Source of the DNA: Fibrobacter sp. UWH4
Lineage (GTDB): Bacteria > Fibrobacterota > Fibrobacteria > Fibrobacterales > Fibrobacteraceae
DNA: 64,000 bases
Reading direction: 5' to 3'
Assembly: GCF_900142475.1 (NCBI RefSeq)
Contig: NZ_FRAY01000004.1
Coordinates: 248,001 to 312,000, forward strand
The notes under the pieces are model-generated. The model was not told the origin of the DNA, ran no database searches, and saw nothing but the letters and a program-made list of their open reading frames with translations. The translations under genes were made by a program, and so were the position numbers. This document shows, one piece after another, positions 49,906 through 59,631 of this stretch (within the stretch, counting starts at the first letter, position 1; each line of letters begins with the position of its first letter).

Positions 49906-52524
49906 TTACTGAACCAAGTTGCTTTCGCACTGGGTACCGTCGTTATCCGGCGTTACGAAGTGCATTTCGATACGGCGGTTCATTTCGCGGCCTTCGGCGG
50001 TGCTGTTGTCTTCCACCGGGCAGCTGGAACCCATACCGATAGCCTTGATGCGATCCTTCTTGACGCCCGCCTTGGTGAGCACCTTCATCACTTCCTTAGC
50101 GCGGTTTTCGGAAAGTTTCTGGTTGGTCTTTTCCTTACCCACGTTGTCGGTGTGACCCTGGATCACGATCTTCAAGTCCTTATAGCTATCGTCTTCGACA
50201 AGCTTCTTGGCCACATTCTTGAGGATCTTCTTGGCGTTAGATTCCAAGGTAGCCTTGCCGCTCTTGAAGGTCACGCCATCAAGCTTTTCAGCAGCCTTCT
50301 TCGGGCAGCCGTGACCATCGTCACCCGCTTCATCCGGGCAGCGGTCGATACCGGTACAGACGCTTTCGAATTCCTTCTGGAGCTTCTTGGTTGCAACCCA
50401 TTCAGAGCAGACGCCGTCCTTATCCGGGTCCGGATCGTCTTCAATCGGGCAACCCTTGTTCCATTCAGGACCGGCTTCAAGTTCGCAACGGTCGTAGCCG
50501 TGGCACATATCCTTGAACTGTTCAAGGGCCTTTTCCTTCGTGACCCACGGAGAGCAGAGGGAGTCGCCATCCGGGTCCGGGCTTTCCTTCGGGCAACCCT
50601 GGGCAAACGCTTCGCCGGCTTCGGTCGGGCACTTGTCAACGCCCTGGCAGATTCCATCGTACTGTTCGAGCATATTCTTCTCGGTCACCCACGGATCGCA
50701 GAAGCCATCCTGGTCGGTGTCCGGATTGCCGAGCGGGCAACCTTCGTTGTTCATCGGGCCAAATTCGGTCGGGCACTTGTCGATACCCTTACAAGACTTC
50801 TCGATGAACCATTCCTTCGCCATCGCTTCGTCTTCAGCAGCCTTTTCGAAGTAGAAGCCCATCTTCTTTTCGGTCACCCACGTGTCGCAGAGGCCGTCGT
50901 TATCGGCATCCGGATCATCCCATGCGCAACCCTTGTTCGCAGCGGAACCGGCTTCGCCCGGGCACATATCGTAACCCTTACAGACATCGGCAAATTCATT
51001 CAGCACGCCTTCGTCGGTGACCCACGGAGAGCAGAGACCGTCTTCATCCGGGTCCGGTTTCTTGGTCGGGCAACCGTTGAAGTTCGGAGAACCTGCCTGG
51101 CTCGGGCATTCATCGATGCCTTCGCAAACGCCGGCAAACTTCTTGAGCAACTTCTTCTGAGAAACCCATGCGTCGCAAACGCCATCACCATCGGCATCCG
51201 GATTGTCAAGCGGGCAACCATCGTCACCTTCGCCAGCTTCGTTCGGGCACTGGTCAATGCCTTCGCAAACTTCAGAGAATTCGGATTCGAAACCCTTTTC
51301 TGCCACCCAGGAATCGCAGACGCCATCTTCGTCGGCATCCGGATTACCCAGCGGGCAACCCTGGTTCAGACGGTGACCGACATCGTCCGGGCACTTATCT
51401 TCATCATCCGTCACGCCGTCGCCATCGCGGTCCTGAGCAAGCAGATAGCCGCTCCAGGTAAGGCCGCCATATACGGTGTACTGCGGGTTCACGCGGATTC
51501 GTTCCACCTGAACACCCCACGGGCGTTCGCCGTTTTCAAGCGTGCTGGCTGCAATAAACTTGTCGCCGCCCAGGTAGTAAGAAGCACCCATGTGCAGGTC
51601 GACTCCCACCGGCAGGTGGAAAACGAGGGCACCGGTCAGCTGCTTCATGTCAAGCTCGCCGTCGCGGTTATCAATACACTGATCTGCAAAACAGTATTCA
51701 TAATTGCTCGTCTGGATGTCCCAGTAATATTCTACGAACAAGGAGAGGAAGTCCATGAAGTAGACTTCGGCAGCGGCGCTCATGAACGGGAGCGACATGT
51801 AGTCGCTGTTCGTCGTGTAGCGGTAACCACCGTTCAAGTGCAACAGGAACGGGAAACCGTCACCGCCGTCCATCTTGCTCAGGTCCATAGACACGGCAAG
51901 ACCGCCCTTGATGGTGGTATTCTTGGTACCGTACGGATAGGCCATGCCGTTTTTCTTGTTGACATATTCCGGTTCGCGGATCCAGAGACCCTGCTTTTCG
52001 TTATTGGCCGTTCCGACAGCGACACCGCCAAACACGGCAACGTCGAACACCTGGTCTTCGGGCAGCGGGAAACGGGCCTTCATGTCCACCTTGAGGTTAC
52101 CCACATAGCCGACCTTGGTATTCGGAACAACAGCACCACCGGTACCGTCGCTATAAACACCTTCAGCGTTAAACTGGTCATAATAGACGGGCATCGTCAC
52201 GCCCAAGTCAAAGTAGTGCCAGATACCGATAGCAAAACCGATGTAGGCGCTTCCACCCACATAGTCCGCGACCGGGGCGCTCTTCTGAGCACCGGCGGCA
52301 TCAATTTCAGAAATTGCAACCCCAGTTGCATCATTGTTCGGGAACATGTCATTGCCAAAGGTTGCGTCGCCCAAAAGGGTAAACACAAGCTTGGAATGTC
52401 CAAGGGAATGAGCCGCCTGGGTCTTATTCACACCCACGAAGCCTTCCTTGTTAATCGTCTGGGGATGTCCAGCAAAGGCGGAAGCCGCCAGCGCAAGGGC
52501 AAGACCCATAGCTACCTTTTTCAT
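49906..52524 (-). CDS. OmpA-family protein with seven Asp/Cys-rich repeats
   Basis: An 872-residue envelope protein. Residues 1-18 are a signal peptide; about 20-355 look like an outer-membrane beta-barrel; DRDGDGVTDDEDKCPDDVG opens a thrombospondin-type-3-like region; then seven units of 42-60 residues follow (about 385-735), each reading (N/D/K/S)PDxDxDxxCxxWV, C(E/K/Q/H/T)GxDxC, GC(P/A). Each unit has four Cys and a calcium-type Asp set; unit four has a 15-20 residue insertion. The C-terminus (about 755-865) is an OmpA peptidoglycan-binding domain (VIQGHTDNVGKEKTNQKLSENRA). It should tie the outer membrane to the wall across a long periplasmic or surface-exposed stalk. AAGGAGAT precedes the start. 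Codon bias suggests strong expression. Confidence 0.92.
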   Translation of the reverse strand: MKKVAMGLALALAASAFAGHPQTINKEGFVGVNKTQAAHSLGHSKLVFTLLGDATFGNDMFPNNDATGVAISEIDAAGAQKSAPVADYVGGSAYIGFAIGIWHYFDLGVTMPVYYDQFNAEGVYSDGTGGAVVPNTKVGYVGNLKVDMKARFPLPEDQVFDVAVFGGVAVGTANNEKQGLWIREPEYVNKKNGMAYPYGTKNTTIKGGLAVSMDLSKMDGGDGFPFLLHLNGGYRYTTNSDYMSLPFMSAAAEVYFMDFLSLFVEYYWDIQTSNYEYCFADQCIDNRDGELDMKQLTGALVFHLPVGVDLHMGASYYLGGDKFIAASTLENGERPWGVQVERIRVNPQYTVYGGLTWSGYLLAQDRDGDGVTDDEDKCPDDVGHRLNQGCPLGNPDADEDGVCDSWVAEKGFESEFSEVCEGIDQCPNEAGEGDDGCPLDNPDADGDGVCDAWVSQKKLLKKFAGVCEGIDECPSQAGSPNFNGCPTKKPDPDEDGLCSPWVTDEGVLNEFADVCKGYDMCPGEAGSAANKGCAWDDPDADNDGLCDTWVTEKKMGFYFEKAAEDEAMAKEWFIEKSCKGIDKCPTEFGPMNNEGCPLGNPDTDQDGFCDPWVTEKNMLEQYDGICQGVDKCPTEAGEAFAQGCPKESPDPDGDSLCSPWVTKEKALEQFKDMCHGYDRCELEAGPEWNKGCPIEDDPDPDKDGVCSEWVATKKLQKEFESVCTGIDRCPDEAGDDGHGCPKKAAEKLDGVTFKSGKATLESNAKKILKNVAKKLVEDDSYKDLKIVIQGHTDNVGKEKTNQKLSENRAKEVMKVLTKAGVKKDRIKAIGMGSSCPVEDNSTAEGREMNRRIEMHFVTPDNDGTQCESNLVQ
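50295..51420. repeat. Seven-unit coding tandem repeat in the OmpA-family gene
   Basis: Repeat units of about 126-180 bases encode the DPDxDGxC...WV / CxGxDxCP / GCP pattern. The units differ at many positions, so the repeat is old and under selection at the Cys, Asp and Trp codons. Confidence 0.85.
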
Positions 52525-53838: not shown

Positions 53839-53885
53839 TTTACGCATTAATATCTTGCCACTATAGGGCATTCGTTCTATATTTA
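53839..53885 (+). promoter_or_regulatory. Candidate ilvB promoter(s)
   Basis: TATATTTA at 53878-53885 fits the FCB-type element and would start RNA near 53890, about 40 bases before the ilvB ATG; an alternative TTTACG (53839) - 17 - TATAGG (53862) lies just upstream. The in-frame ATG at 53885 would then be outside or at the edge of the mRNA. Confidence 0.4.
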
Positions 53886-53929
53886 TGCCATATTTTTTGA
53901 ACAACAACCCGTTAAGTACAGGAAATTAT

Positions 53930-55648
53930 ATGGCAAATTCTCCATTAAGTGGCGCAGAGGTGATTATCGAATGCCTCAAGCGCGAAGGAATTGATACCAT
54001 TTTCGGTTATCCCGGTGGATCGGCCATCCCGATGTTCGATGCCATTCTGGATTCCAATATTAAAGTCGTGTTGACCCGCCACGAACAGGGCGCTACCCAC
54101 ATGGCCGACGGTTACGCTCGCCAGACCGGCAAGGTCGGCGTCGCACTCGTCACCAGCGGTCCGGGCGCCACCAACACCTTTACCGGTATCTACACCGCCC
54201 TTATGGATTCTAGCCCGATCGTGGTTCTTGCCGCCCAGACGACTACCCCGAACCTGGGTAAGGACGCCTTCCAGGAATGCGATACCAGCGGTATGACTTT
54301 TGCAGCCGTGAAGCATTCTTACTTGGTGAAGGATTCCAACGACCTTCCGCGCATTATGAAAGAAGCTTTCCACATCGCACGCAGCGGCCGTCCGGGCCCC
54401 GTGCTGATTGACTTGCCGAAGGACGTGACCGCAGGCCCCTGCACCGCTCCGTTCACCGACAAGATGGACCTTCCGGGTTACAAGATTCCGAGCTACGCTT
54501 CTACTGAAAGTGTCGAAAAGGCCGCCGAATACCTGAAGAAGTCCAAGAAGCCGCTCTTGCTCGTGGGCCACGGCGCCATGATTTCGGGCGCTAGCCGCCA
54601 GGTGAAGGAACTCGCCGAAAAGTTGAACGCCCCCGTGGCATGCACTTTGCTCGGCCTCGGCACCTTCCCGACCGACCATGAACTTTCTTTGGGTATGCTC
54701 GGCATGCACGGCACCGTGTACGCCAACAAGGCCGTTCTCGATTGCGACTTGATTCTTTCGATTGGTAGCCGCTGGGACGACCGCATTACCGGTAAGCTTG
54801 ACGTGTTCTGTAAGGACGCTATCAAGATGCACATCGACATCGACCCCGCCGAAGAAGGCAAGGTGTTGCAGCCGGATGTGTTCATGTGCGGCGATGCAAA
54901 GCTCGTTCTGGAACAGCTCCTCCCGCTCGTGGGTAAGCTCGACACCGCCGAATGGGTGAAGACTTGCCAGTCCTGGAAAAAACGTTTCCCGCTGACCTAC
55001 CCGAAGCAGGGCGGTCTCCGTATGCAGCACATTGTTCAGACTGTTAGCGACCTCACGCAGGGCAAGGCGATCGTCACGACCGACGTGGGCCAGCACCAGA
55101 TGTGGGTGGCTCAGTTCTTCCACACCAATTATCCGCGCCAGCTCCACTCCAGTGGCGGCGCAGGCACCATGGGCTTTGGGCTGCCCTCTTGCATTGGCGC
55201 CGCTTTCGGCAACACGACCGGTTGGCCGGTAGTGACCTTCTGCGGTGACGGTGGTTTCCAGATGACCGAAGCAGAACTTGCAACGGCCGCCATCCACAAG
55301 CTCCCCATCAAGATCTTCGTGATGGACAACAAGTACCTGGGCATGGTGCGCCAGTGGCAGGACATGTTCTACGACAAGCGTTACAGCTGCGTGGACATGA
55401 AGGGCAACCCCGACTTCGTGAAGCTCGCCGAAGCCTACGGCATCCTGGGACTGCGCATCAAGCGTAGCGCCGACGCCGAACGCGTGATTCAGAAGGCTCT
55501 GGAATACAACGAAGGCCCGGTGCTCATCCACTGCGAATGCGAAAAGGAAGACAACGTGTTCCCGATGATTCCGGCCGGTGCTCCGATTACGAGCATGATT
55601 ACCGAACAGCCGAAGACTCAACTTGAAAAGCCCACGGGATCGACCTAA
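53930..55648 (+). CDS. ilvB: Acetolactate synthase large subunit
   Basis: 572 residues. It condenses two pyruvates (or pyruvate and 2-oxobutyrate) using thiamine diphosphate and FAD, the first common step to valine, leucine and isoleucine. Motifs: GYPGGSAIPMFDA with the catalytic Glu region before it, LVTSGPGATNTFTGI, and the diphosphate motif GDGGFQMTEAEL...MDNKYLGMVRQWQ. The ATG at 53930 is chosen since AGGAAA precedes it; the frame runs upstream to an ATG at 53885 which lacks a ribosome site. It is followed after 11 bases by ilvN. Confidence 0.96.
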   Translation: MANSPLSGAEVIIECLKREGIDTIFGYPGGSAIPMFDAILDSNIKVVLTRHEQGATHMADGYARQTGKVGVALVTSGPGATNTFTGIYTALMDSSPIVVLAAQTTTPNLGKDAFQECDTSGMTFAAVKHSYLVKDSNDLPRIMKEAFHIARSGRPGPVLIDLPKDVTAGPCTAPFTDKMDLPGYKIPSYASTESVEKAAEYLKKSKKPLLLVGHGAMISGASRQVKELAEKLNAPVACTLLGLGTFPTDHELSLGMLGMHGTVYANKAVLDCDLILSIGSRWDDRITGKLDVFCKDAIKMHIDIDPAEEGKVLQPDVFMCGDAKLVLEQLLPLVGKLDTAEWVKTCQSWKKRFPLTYPKQGGLRMQHIVQTVSDLTQGKAIVTTDVGQHQMWVAQFFHTNYPRQLHSSGGAGTMGFGLPSCIGAAFGNTTGWPVVTFCGDGGFQMTEAELATAAIHKLPIKIFVMDNKYLGMVRQWQDMFYDKRYSCVDMKGNPDFVKLAEAYGILGLRIKRSADAERVIQKALEYNEGPVLIHCECEKEDNVFPMIPAGAPITSMITEQPKTQLEKPTGST

Positions 55649-55659
55649 GGAGATAAGCC

Positions 55660-56157
55660 ATGTTAAAGGATAAAGCACATTCTATTAGTTTGTTAGTTGC
55701 AAACCGCCCAGGCGTGCTCGTGCGCATCGCCCTCGTGTTCTCCCGCCGTGGTTACAACATCGATTCCCTGGTGGTCTCCCCCACGCTCGACCCGAACTTT
55801 AGCCGCATGAACATCATCGCTCACGGCAATCCCGAGATCTTGATGCAGATTATCAAGCAGCTCGAAAAGCTCGTGGACGTGGTGCAGGCCAAGGACCATA
55901 CCGATACCGACGCTGTGGAAAAGGAACTCGCACTCATCAAGGTGCGTTGCACTCCGGACCAGCGTACCGAAATTCTGCAACTTTGCGACCACTTCCACGC
56001 CAACACCGTGGACATGACCGCGACTTCGATGATTATCCAGATCACCGGAAACAGCCAGAAGGTCGACACGCTCAAGAGTCTGTTGCAGAAATTCGAAATC
56101 GTCGAATACATCCGCACGGGCAAGGTCATCATGCTCCGCGGCGAAGAGCAGACGTAG
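55660..56157 (+). CDS. ilvN: Acetolactate synthase small (regulatory) subunit
   Basis: 165 residues: an ACT domain (HSISLLVANRPGVLVRIALVFSRRGYNIDSLVV) that binds valine for feedback control, and a C-terminal domain typical of the long IlvH form. AGGAGA lies six bases before the ATG. Forms the holoenzyme with IlvB. A terminator follows at 56199. Confidence 0.95.
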   Translation: MLKDKAHSISLLVANRPGVLVRIALVFSRRGYNIDSLVVSPTLDPNFSRMNIIAHGNPEILMQIIKQLEKLVDVVQAKDHTDTDAVEKELALIKVRCTPDQRTEILQLCDHFHANTVDMTATSMIIQITGNSQKVDTLKSLLQKFEIVEYIRTGKVIMLRGEEQT

Positions 56158-56319: not shown

Positions 56320-56928
56320 ATGAAAATCGAGAAGAAAATCGTCAGGAACAGTGCGACGCTAAGCCTCGCCGCCAAAAGCGCCATTGCTGCATCGCTTGGT
56401 ATTGCGGCCGTTGCATTGACCGCTTGCGAAGAAAGCGCCACCGCCGCGTCCCCCGCTCAAGATCCTGAAACAGGAGCTCCCGAAAACGAAACTCCGAGCA
56501 GTTCAAGCGTTGTCGATATTCCCCTGAGCCACGAGGCTCTTAGCAGTTCGGCAGTCGAAGCACTGTCTTCTGCAGCAGAACCTTTGAGCAGTTCGTCGTT
56601 TGAAGAACCGTATCCACCCCCTGAAGCGGGTACCATCGCCGCACCCACCGACGAAGACATTTACGGTCCGAACTCCAGTTCATCTTCAGAAGAGGAAGCA
56701 CAAAGCAGCTCCGCTGAAGAACCGGTACCGCTCGCAGGCGACATCTTTATCGAAGAAGAAAGTTCTTCGAGCGAAGTGGAACAGCCCTCCAGTTCGTCCG
56801 TCGATATACATGAAGTATGCCCCGAAAACGACCCGTGGTGCATCCAGGTTCACATGTGTAACAACGAAGACGGTTGCATGGCCGCAAGCATGGTTTCCAC
56901 TTACGAACGTAGCGACATCGCCGGATGA
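56320..56928 (+). CDS. Ser/Glu-rich lipoprotein with Cys-rich C-terminus; candidate substrate of the adjacent radical SAM enzyme
   Basis: 202 residues. A lipobox LTAC near residue 36 marks a lipoprotein; GGAAGGAG seven bases upstream gives a strong start. Residues about 55-165 are a low-complexity spacer of SSS, Glu and Pro blocks typical of Fibrobacter surface proteins. The C-terminal ~40 residues differ: HEVCPENDPWCIQVHMCNN and EDGCMAASM carry four Cys within about 22 residues. Its stop overlaps the start of a radical SAM/SPASM gene (ATGA), which strongly couples the two. I infer that the C-terminus may be the peptide modified by the enzyme, shown on the surface by the lipid anchor and spacer. 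No homologue is named with certainty; a FibroRumin-like RiPP precursor is one possibility. Confidence 0.6.
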   Translation: MKIEKKIVRNSATLSLAAKSAIAASLGIAAVALTACEESATAASPAQDPETGAPENETPSSSSVVDIPLSHEALSSSAVEALSSAAEPLSSSSFEEPYPPPEAGTIAAPTDEDIYGPNSSSSSEEEAQSSSAEEPVPLAGDIFIEEESSSSEVEQPSSSSVDIHEVCPENDPWCIQVHMCNNEDGCMAASMVSTYERSDIAG

Positions 56929-58020
56929 ACTTAGTTCTATGCCTTACGGAACAGTGCAAACTTGCGCTGTTCCTATTGTTATTACAAGGACACGCAATCC
57001 GCACGCCATAACGTGATGGACGACAAAACGCTTGAGCAGGCGATTCGCGTGGGGCTTGAACGCAGCCTGTTTTTTAAGCAGACTTACCTGAACATTACCT
57101 TTTTCGGTGGCGAACCCTTGCTGCGCAAGGACGCTATTTTCAAGGGCGTAAACATGGCCAAGGCATTTCTTGCCGAGGCTATGGACAAAGGCGAAGCGCC
57201 CAGTAACTTCAAGCTCAACTTTGCCGTCAACACCAACGGCACGCTCTTTGACGATTCTTTCTTTGACTTTTGTGAGCGGGAGCATTTTCGCATTTATCTT
57301 TCACTCGATGGCCCGGAGCACCACCACGACATTGCTCGCCGTACCGTAAATGGCTGCGGAAGTTTCAAGGAAATCGAAAAGAACATTCCGCGATTCGTAA
57401 AGTTAGGCGCAGTCGCCTTAAGTACGGTAACACGCGCCCACGTAGAAACGCTTGCCGAAAGCGTCAAGTGGTTGCACGAACAGGGATTCAAAAGCCTTAC
57501 CACGAGCGTCGACTTTGACGGCAAATGGACCGGCGAAGATTTTGACAGACTCGCCTTGCAATACCAGAAGATGGCTTTGTACTGGAAGGAATGTCGCGAT
57601 AAAGGCGACAAGATGTTCTTGGGCACGATTCAAGACAAAATCAAGTTATACCTTGCGAATTTACGGTATAGGCAATATTCTTGCCATGTATACAACGGAG
57701 CCATTGGCGTCGCTACCAATGGCAATATGTTCCCGTGCACCAGGTTCATTACCTCGAACGAGAACCCGCCTTACTTACAAGGTAACGTCTTTACCGGATT
57801 CAACGAAGACGCCTGCGAACAAATTAGACTGTTCTTGGACAACGACAAAAAAGAATGCGAAGGCTGCGACATACGCTACCGCTGTTGTGCACATGAATGT
57901 GCCTGCACGAGCTTTTACAGCACGGGTTCTATTGAAGGCGTATCGCCTGAAGTCTGCACGCACGAACGCATGCTTGCAGAGATTTGTGATTCTGTTATGA
58001 TAAATAACAGAATCACTTGA
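56925..58020 (+). pseudogene. Radical SAM/SPASM peptide-modifying enzyme with a one-base frameshift in the cluster motif
   Basis: The gene should start at the ATG at 56925, which overlaps the lipoprotein stop and encodes MNLVLCLTEQC. After TGC (56955) comes AAACTTG; removing one A restores C-N-L-R-C-S-Y-C, the CxxxCxxC site of the radical-SAM [4Fe-4S] cluster, and the frame is then open to 58020. As written the first Cys lies in another frame from the other two; the 56925 frame stops after 28 codons. Downstream are FFGGEPLL, NTNGTL, LSLDGPEHHHD, and a SPASM region with SCHVYNG, MFPCTRF, CEGCDIRYRCCAHECAC and PEVCTH, ligands of auxiliary clusters. This fits anSME/peptide-maturase families that modify a partner peptide. 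Either a recent inactivation, a frameshift-controlled gene, or an assembly error. Confidence 0.8.
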
Positions 58021-58266: not shown

Positions 58267-59631
58267 ATGTTTTCACAGCTGACTGACTCTCTAGAATCTA
58301 CTCTCAAGAACCTGCGCGGGCAGGGCAAGCTCACCGAAGAAAATGTCGCCGAATCGTTGCGCGAAGTGCGCCGCGCATTCCTCGAAGCCGACGTGAACTT
58401 CAACGTGACCCGCGACTTCGTAAAGGCCGTCAAGGAAAAGGCCCTCGGATCCGAAGTGCTGAACTCGGTGACCCCCGGTCAGCAGATTGTGAAAATCATC
58501 CATGACGAACTCGTGGCCGTGATGGGTGGCGAAACCAAGGAAATCAACCTCTCGGGCCCCGCTCCGGTGGGCATCATGATGGTGGGTCTACAGGGCTCCG
58601 GTAAGACCACCTTCGCCGGCAAAATCGCCCTCTGGATGCGCAGCAAAAAGAAGAGGAAGCCGCTCCTGGTGGCCGCTGACGTGTACCGCCCCGCCGCTAT
58701 CAAGCAGTTGCAGGTGCTCGGCAAGTCGATTGGCATTCCCGTTTACGACGAAGGCCAGGGCAATCCGGTCGAAATCATCAAGCACGGTTACCAGTACGCC
58801 AAGGACAACGGCTTTGACTTAGTGATTTACGATACCGCAGGCCGCCTGCAGATCGACGAAGAGTTGATGCAGGAACTGGAAAAGGCCCGCGACGCCGTTC
58901 ACCCGGATGAAATTTTGTTCGTGGCCGACGCCATGATCGGTCAGGAAGCGGTGAACGTGGCCGAAACCTTCTGGCAGCGTCTATCGTTTACCGGCGTTTG
59001 CCTTTCGAAGATGGACGGTGACACCCGCGGCGGTGCAGCCCTCAGCATCAAGAAGATGACGGGCGTGCCTATCTGCTTTATCGGTGTCGGCGAAAAGCTC
59101 CCCGAAATTGAACTGTTCCACCCCGACCGTATGGCCAGCCGAATCCTCGGCATGGGCGACGTGGTTACCCTCGTGGAGCGTGCGCAGCAGGTCATCGACG
59201 AAAAAGACGCGAAGGACCTGAAGAAGAAGATTCTCAACAACACCTTCGACCTGAACGATTTCTTGAACCAGCTGCGCACCATCAAGAAGCTGGGCCGCAT
59301 CAAGGACATTCTGAGCCTGATTCCGGGCCTGAACAAGCTCCCCATCGATCAGATTGACGAAAAGGAACTGGTTTACGTGGAAGCCGTGCTCAGCTCCATG
59401 ACCCCGAAGGAACGCAAGAAACCGCAGATTCTGGACGGCAGCCGCAAGGCCCGCGTGGCCAAGGGTTCCGGCACCGAAATCGGTCGCGTGAACGCGGTGC
59501 TCAAGCAGTACGAAACCATGAAGGAAATGTTCAAGAAGGTCGGCGACATGGCCCGCAAGCAGAACAACGGCGGCGCCGTCGGTTCCAACTACACTCCGCC
59601 CAAGGACAAGAAGAAAAAGAAGAAACACTAG
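58267..59631 (+). CDS. ffh: Signal recognition particle protein Ffh (SRP54)
   Basis: 454 residues: N-domain helices, GTPase domain with GLQGSGKTTFAGK (G1), DTAGRLQIDEELM (G3), SKMDGDTRGGAAL (G4/insertion box), and a C-terminal M domain with a Lys-rich end. Targets membrane and secretory proteins to the translocon with 4.5S RNA and FtsY. No SRP RNA gene was recognised nearby. The start ATG at 58267 has no Shine-Dalgarno; TAAATTTG lies nine bases before it, similar to the leaderless boxes. Confidence 0.96.
   Translation: MFSQLTDSLESTLKNLRGQGKLTEENVAESLREVRRAFLEADVNFNVTRDFVKAVKEKALGSEVLNSVTPGQQIVKIIHDELVAVMGGETKEINLSGPAPVGIMMVGLQGSGKTTFAGKIALWMRSKKKRKPLLVAADVYRPAAIKQLQVLGKSIGIPVYDEGQGNPVEIIKHGYQYAKDNGFDLVIYDTAGRLQIDEELMQELEKARDAVHPDEILFVADAMIGQEAVNVAETFWQRLSFTGVCLSKMDGDTRGGAALSIKKMTGVPICFIGVGEKLPEIELFHPDRMASRILGMGDVVTLVERAQQVIDEKDAKDLKKKILNNTFDLNDFLNQLRTIKKLGRIKDILSLIPGLNKLPIDQIDEKELVYVEAVLSSMTPKERKKPQILDGSRKARVAKGSGTEIGRVNAVLKQYETMKEMFKKVGDMARKQNNGGAVGSNYTPPKDKKKKKKH

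Follow-up and report, generated by a model that had tools for sequence, protein, structure and literature searches.

A Fibrobacter lipoprotein paired with a radical SAM/SPASM enzyme: a candidate system for modifying membrane-anchored proteins

Known radical SAM peptide maturases mostly serve free peptide products or protein cofactors. In Fibrobacter, a genus known for rumen cellulose breakdown, we came across a radical SAM/SPASM gene that lies directly behind a lipoprotein gene, within a 64,000-nucleotide stretch of the genome of Fibrobacter sp. UWH4 (the window). This raises the question whether the lipoprotein is the substrate of the enzyme and, if so, which part of it would be modified. The first-pass annotation of this DNA had proposed a RiPP-like module, in which a Cys-rich tail is modified while the protein remains on its membrane anchor. 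The lipoprotein gene (56320-56928, 202 aa) and the frame of the radical SAM/SPASM enzyme (56962-58020) are flanked by ilvB/ilvN (acetolactate synthase, 53885-56157) on one side and by ffh (58267-59631) on the other. The features of the pair are as follows, class A being the enzyme clade to which the window belongs:

56320-56928, plus strand: lipoprotein gene, class A, 202 aa (open reading frame and translation; homologues adjoin nearly all class A enzymes)
56320-56343, plus strand: N-terminus MKIEKKIV, preceding the hydrophobic signal segment (84/84 class A lipoproteins share M1, I3, E4 and K5)
56425-56427, plus strand: lipobox Cys36 (LTAC, residues 33-36), predicted lipidation site (sequence; family lipobox tally)
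56509-56580, plus strand: internal segment VVDIPLSHEALSSSAVEALSSAAE, possible enzyme-recognition segment ([DE][IF][PSK]xS in 83/84 class A lipoproteins)
56581-56817, plus strand: spacer rich in Ser/Glu/Pro, variable in length and bearing xAGxxxP-like motifs (sequence, relatives, motif counts)
56818-56877, plus strand: Cys segment with Cys167, 174, 180 and 186, read as two disulfide pairs (parity)
56887-56925, plus strand: SMVSTYERSDIAG, the 13 C-terminal residues, candidate for the peptide that is modified or recognised (conservation in 84 proteins)
56925-56957, plus strand: 5' part of the radical SAM gene, MNLVLCLTEQC, whose ATG overlaps the lipoprotein stop; out of frame here
56958-56960, plus strand: one-base insertion, AAA for the AA of relatives, inside CxxxCxxC (DNA comparison with relatives)
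56962-58020, plus strand: radical SAM/SPASM maturase, rest of the open reading frame, 352 aa as listed (PF04055; NF047865; family alignment)

The signal peptide with its lipobox, the Ser/Glu/Pro-rich spacer and the four cysteines within the 20 residues before SMVSTYERSDIAG agree with the first-pass description of the upstream protein. The lipobox formed part of the pattern by which the lipoprotein family was gathered, and this pattern may miss members; it missed those at two loci (L131 and L029). When the neighbourhoods of the clusters were read by eye, no gene for a transporter, a protease or immunity was seen, as a usual peptide cluster would have, and no RRE was noticed near the enzyme; the Pfam scan of neighbouring genes covered five neighbours in the window. 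Elsewhere in the window, adjoining radC, the minus strand encodes a protein of the OmpA family (49906-52524, 872 aa) in which DxDxDG-type repeats bearing Cys are numerous.

The downstream gene had been annotated as radical SAM/SPASM, and this assignment is sound. The protein of 56962-58020 matched PF04055 with 47.7 bits (cut-off 29.5), and the cysteines of the SPASM region are conserved in the family. Among 23 representatives C11, C15, C18, C253, C271, C311, C314, C320, C325, C327 and C344 are invariant, so that both the CxxxCxxC motif and the SPASM-region cysteines are present; in the window, the first of these cysteines is out of frame.

At the DNA level, the window reads TGC AAAC TTG CGC TGT where relatives read TGC AAC TTG CGC TGT. 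The extra A (56958-56960) is unique to this genome and shifts the frame inside CxxxCxxC, after the first Cys and before the second. The first-pass annotation had the lipoprotein stop overlapping the enzyme start as ATGA. The overlap exists (TGA at 56926-56928, ATG at 56925) and is genuine in the relatives: of the 48 class A enzymes for which an adjacent lipoprotein was scored, 44 have the lipoprotein stop within it. In the window, however, this ATG opens the frame MNLVLCLTEQCKLALFLLLL and not that of the enzyme. The latter is closed by stops at 56926 and 56932, and the first start listed for it is TTG 56962. Starting there yields MRCSYCYY, without the first Cys of the motif. The corresponding motif of the class A relatives inspected, MNL(V/I/T)L(C/S)LTE(Q/R)CNLRC, is unbroken, and the same motif is in frame in the enzymes of other clades. 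Programmed frameshifting at AAAC was rejected because the remaining class A relatives inspected encode MNLVLCLTEQCNLRCSYCYY in a single frame. The dN/dS of the window enzyme against five close relatives was 0.03-0.06 (about 0.05), compared to 0.04-0.10 among the intact relatives themselves. Because these values match, the extra A implies either a mutation of this strain, and then a very recent break, or a sequence error. As assembled, the enzyme gene of this genome is frameshifted and would not give an active enzyme.

To place the pair, we searched genome sets with one genome per species, many of them MAGs. Of 80 Fibrobacter genomes, 60 held the enzyme, including 36 of the 40 high-quality ones. 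The fetched loci gave 109 distinct Fibrobacter enzyme sequences. A tree was built from the 108 of sufficient length; in it alone, the first 12 residues of the window enzyme were swapped for the family consensus, as its own frame is broken there. Beyond the genus, a search of 168 genomes from the phylum turned up the enzyme family in just four, all of the same bacterial family. Of the five loci obtained from these, three had related lipoproteins upstream, or the beginnings of such, and one had a soluble protein downstream.

The enzyme clades match the type of partner, which is one of three kinds of upstream lipoprotein or a small basic soluble protein downstream. Class A (n=49) has lipoproteins upstream; the script scored none for one of its enzymes (L029), upstream of which a lipoprotein frame that uses an alternative start is nonetheless visible. 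The lipoproteins of class A' (n=4) end in SM[PA]..xGH[IV].xP. Those of class B (21 labelled, 22 with L131) start with M[DN]I[RKQ]KxKV, carry repeated xSGExxPPESSSS-like segments, and lack tail Cys in 20/21. Class C (about 33) lacks a lipoprotein; 12-41 nt 3' of the enzyme lies the gene for a small protein of 69-183 aa that is rich in Lys/Ala and is possibly a soluble precursor. Such enzymes are found at L056, L066, L069, L073, L139 and other loci, and some of the class C partners repeat NSPIGGKTPV or GIPV-like motifs. The genome of the window itself holds a second, intact enzyme of the family (L055, 4965-6080; C3:237125-238207), and its partner is a class B lipoprotein without tail Cys and with repeated xAGxxxPP segments. 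On the enzyme tree, the partner labels need 4 changes, compared to a minimum of 3 and a mean of 49 when shuffled; one of the 4 is the mislabelled L131, whose upstream class B lipoprotein was overlooked by the pattern.

The coupling is also strong at the level of the tail. A profile of the C-terminal 46 residues (A2) found matches in 46 of the 111 genomes of the bacterial family, which are exactly those with a class A enzyme: tail and enzyme occur together in 46/46, and the tail in 0/65 of the other genomes. Among the matches listed, all lie at enzyme clusters, apart from two weak strays (E about 4e-4). A class A enzyme is preceded by one to five tandem lipoprotein genes, the counts at L102 and L099 spanning a neighbouring pair; these two loci hold two complete lipoprotein-enzyme pairs in tandem, from differing class A subclades. 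The pair recurs across the genus and is not a product of chance, and tail and class A enzyme co-vary in the way the first-pass annotation had asked to be checked. A dedicated precursor gene adjoining the modifying enzyme, as expected of a RiPP locus, is found here. The frameshift in the window could be taken to mean that the two genes are chance neighbours or that the locus is degraded and functionless in Fibrobacter, but the co-occurrence in 46/46 genomes, the clade matching and the dN/dS of 0.03-0.06 already contradict this, and we give it hardly any credence.

If the lipoprotein is the substrate, are the tail cysteines the modified residues? The first-pass annotation had assumed so. Counted over the last 60 residues of 84 distinct class A lipoproteins, the number of tail Cys was 2 in 59, 4 in 23 and 6 in 2, and never odd. 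All 27 different Cys spacings contain an even number (27/27), and in a tree built without the Cys region the number changed at least 10 times, each time between even states. Since single cysteines occur in the spacers of 8 class A proteins, even parity is a property of the tail. In some class A spacers (for example at L044 and L070), a CGxxxCG-like Cys pair (TCGQAACGEQ) occurs as a unit in the N-terminal spacer. In exported proteins, disulfides are expected to leave an even number of Cys. The window's genome encodes a DsbA homologue; VKOR was looked for in the genome as the oxidant, and was dropped from consideration as none was found. The best reading of these sequence patterns is that the tail Cys form disulfide pairs.

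An alternative is a PapB-like reaction, in which the enzyme would form thioethers between tail Cys and the side chains of Asp/Glu and so make the lipoprotein a lipid-anchored ranthipeptide. PapB (NF047865) is indeed the best NCBIfam match, with 192.6 bits for the window and 211.7 for an intact relative, and one Cys is found in every tail. Several thioether-forming families are among the best NCBIfam relatives of the intact enzyme, all with scores far under their cut-offs; for PapB itself, five intact family members scored 181-212 bits, and class A enzymes 193-212, against a cut-off of 340. A PapB-type enzyme joins one Cys to one Asp/Glu, with CX3D/E in PapA (PMC9413430), so a thioether of this type would need no Cys pairs and does not demand the even numbers over 27 spacings. 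CX3[DE] is present at every Cys in only 11/84 tails. PapB accepts CXnD with n = 0-6 (PMC9413430), in favour of this alternative; an Asp/Glu at +1 to +7 of every Cys is found in only 41/84. Moreover, the partners of the paralogous clades B and C have no tail Cys or 0-1 Cys. For a class A relative (L086), the structure prediction (pLDDT 88) came closest to CteB, a thioether enzyme, and this would favour the same chemistry. Score and Cys-acceptor spacing exclude membership of the PapB/ranthipeptide group as defined, and we consider a ranthipeptide-like reaction unlikely.

These results do not support the Cys-rich tail as the modified site that it had been taken for. Over the family as a whole, the enzymes also occur with partners that have no tail Cys, and this is one of the observations that the first-pass annotation had named as speaking against it. 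What stands of the original idea is a dedicated enzyme/lipoprotein module whose substrate would stay membrane-anchored. A Cys beside a radical SAM gene need not signify thioethers.

Another part of the tail is fixed, namely its very end. All 84 class A lipoproteins end in a motif SM[VIA][TSI]T[FYL][E]xxD, always 12-13 residues from the end, in which S, M and T(+4) are invariant (84/84) and E(+6) and D(+9) nearly so (81/84 and 83/84). The overlapping enzyme start is not the sole cause of this constraint, because the motif is retained, with codons that vary at most positions, in 38 lipoproteins not adjacent to the enzyme.

The invariant Ser and Thr(+4) would fit an enzyme that, like an anaerobic sulfatase maturase, oxidises the Ser (or Thr) of the C-terminal peptide to an aldehyde. 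In the structure comparison, the anSME structures rank right behind CteB (TM 0.75-0.78), and they too are without an RRE-like extension. However, the sulfatase motif CxPxR/SxPxR is missing from the partner and the anSME family score is 92.5 bits against a cut-off of 349, which makes this chemistry very unlikely. The conserved peptide could also be a recognition or sorting tag instead of the modified site. In that case, the target would lie elsewhere in the partner, for example in the xAGxxxP-like repeats of the spacer or the DIPLSHE segment. The partners of classes B and C are without the class A C-terminus, so the target may differ by clade or be a motif common to all. Such a motif is conceivable: xAG[DEVI][PIV]-like motifs occur 26 times per 1000 aa in class B lipoproteins (6 in controls, about 5 when shuffled), and a PxIxGI-like motif recurs among class C partners (EM score 104 vs 67 +/- 1.4 when shuffled), although the pattern was picked after the data were seen and class C homologues were not fully removed. 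In class A the density is moderate, with 8 per 1000 aa, and 16/84 lipoproteins have no motif at all. A target shared by all partner classes, of the xAG type or PxIxGI-like, is the chief alternative on these post hoc leads, and a target outside the C-terminal peptide seems rather unlikely to us.

From the gene pairing, the exclusive co-occurrence, the match of clades and partners, the conserved C-terminus and the even parity, we infer a modification, and with it its site, chemistry, timing, surface exposure and role. We favour, with slightly better than even confidence, that the lipoprotein is the substrate of a cytosolic maturase that acts before export, probably at the C-terminal peptide, and that the Cys go on to form disulfides. 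Made in the cytosol, the precursor would carry KIEKK at its N-terminus, a DIPLSHE-type segment internally and SM(V)(S/T)T(F/Y)ExxD at its C-terminus. The radical SAM/SPASM enzyme, translated from the overlapping start, would bind it without an RRE domain and modify it ahead of Sec export and lipidation, the C-terminal 13-mer being the likeliest site. After export, the paired Cys may close into disulfide loops and so support the modified tip, which would stay anchored via the lipid and the Ser-rich spacer. That the protein is displayed at the surface and touches fibre or other cells is a guess.

More broadly, and with somewhat less than even confidence, we propose that these are Fibrobacteraceae-specific radical SAM maturases with anchored lipoprotein substrates. 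One enzyme would modify the C-terminal tip of several tandem disulfide-looped lipoproteins, the sister clades would modify repeat-bearing lipoproteins or small soluble proteins, and the cell surface would thereby be post-translationally modified. With a lipoprotein as partner and no export or cleavage genes seen nearby, the arrangement suggests enzymes that alter cell-attached proteins and not free peptides. A real modification would mean that some of the Fibrobacter envelope bears a covalent change not yet described, placed at a fixed C-terminal peptide. The candidate site is short, exact and common to 84 proteins, and the sister clades are built-in comparisons.

How does this family relate to known systems? 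The FibroRumin maturase (TIGR04136) belongs to a predicted radical SAM peptide system whose name points to Fibrobacter, and the first-pass annotation had suggested a link. This could not be upheld: when searched against TIGR04136 (cut-off 400), the window enzyme gave no match, the best score in its own genome was 44.2 bits (a paralogue) and class C enzymes reached 57-61, which rules out membership. Our literature search found no paper on FibroRumin and none combining 'radical SAM', 'SPASM' and 'Fibrobacter'. A low-pH expression study of F. succinogenes S85 reports changes in six radical SAM genes (PMC5442110), which may or may not include members of the present enzyme family. The anaerobic sulfatase-maturating enzyme (4K36-4K39) has the same fold and size and, as appears to be the case here, no N-terminal recognition domain, but no sulfatase was seen near the Fibrobacter genes. 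By both sequence and fold, the closest solved structure is CteB, the SCIFF maturase (5WGG, 5WHY; TIGR03974). However, the Fibrobacter enzymes score 118-139 bits against the SCIFF cut-off of 425, and their CxxxCxxC starts at residue 11, which leaves no room for an N-terminal recognition domain, whereas solved CteB has about 100 more N-terminal residues. The PapA/PapB system resembles the Fibrobacter pair in its radical SAM and SPASM domains, matched over almost the full length, and in its adjacent partner. It differs in that the Fibrobacter partners are lipoproteins or Lys/Ala-rich soluble proteins that show no regular CX3D array, and in the even parity of the tail Cys.
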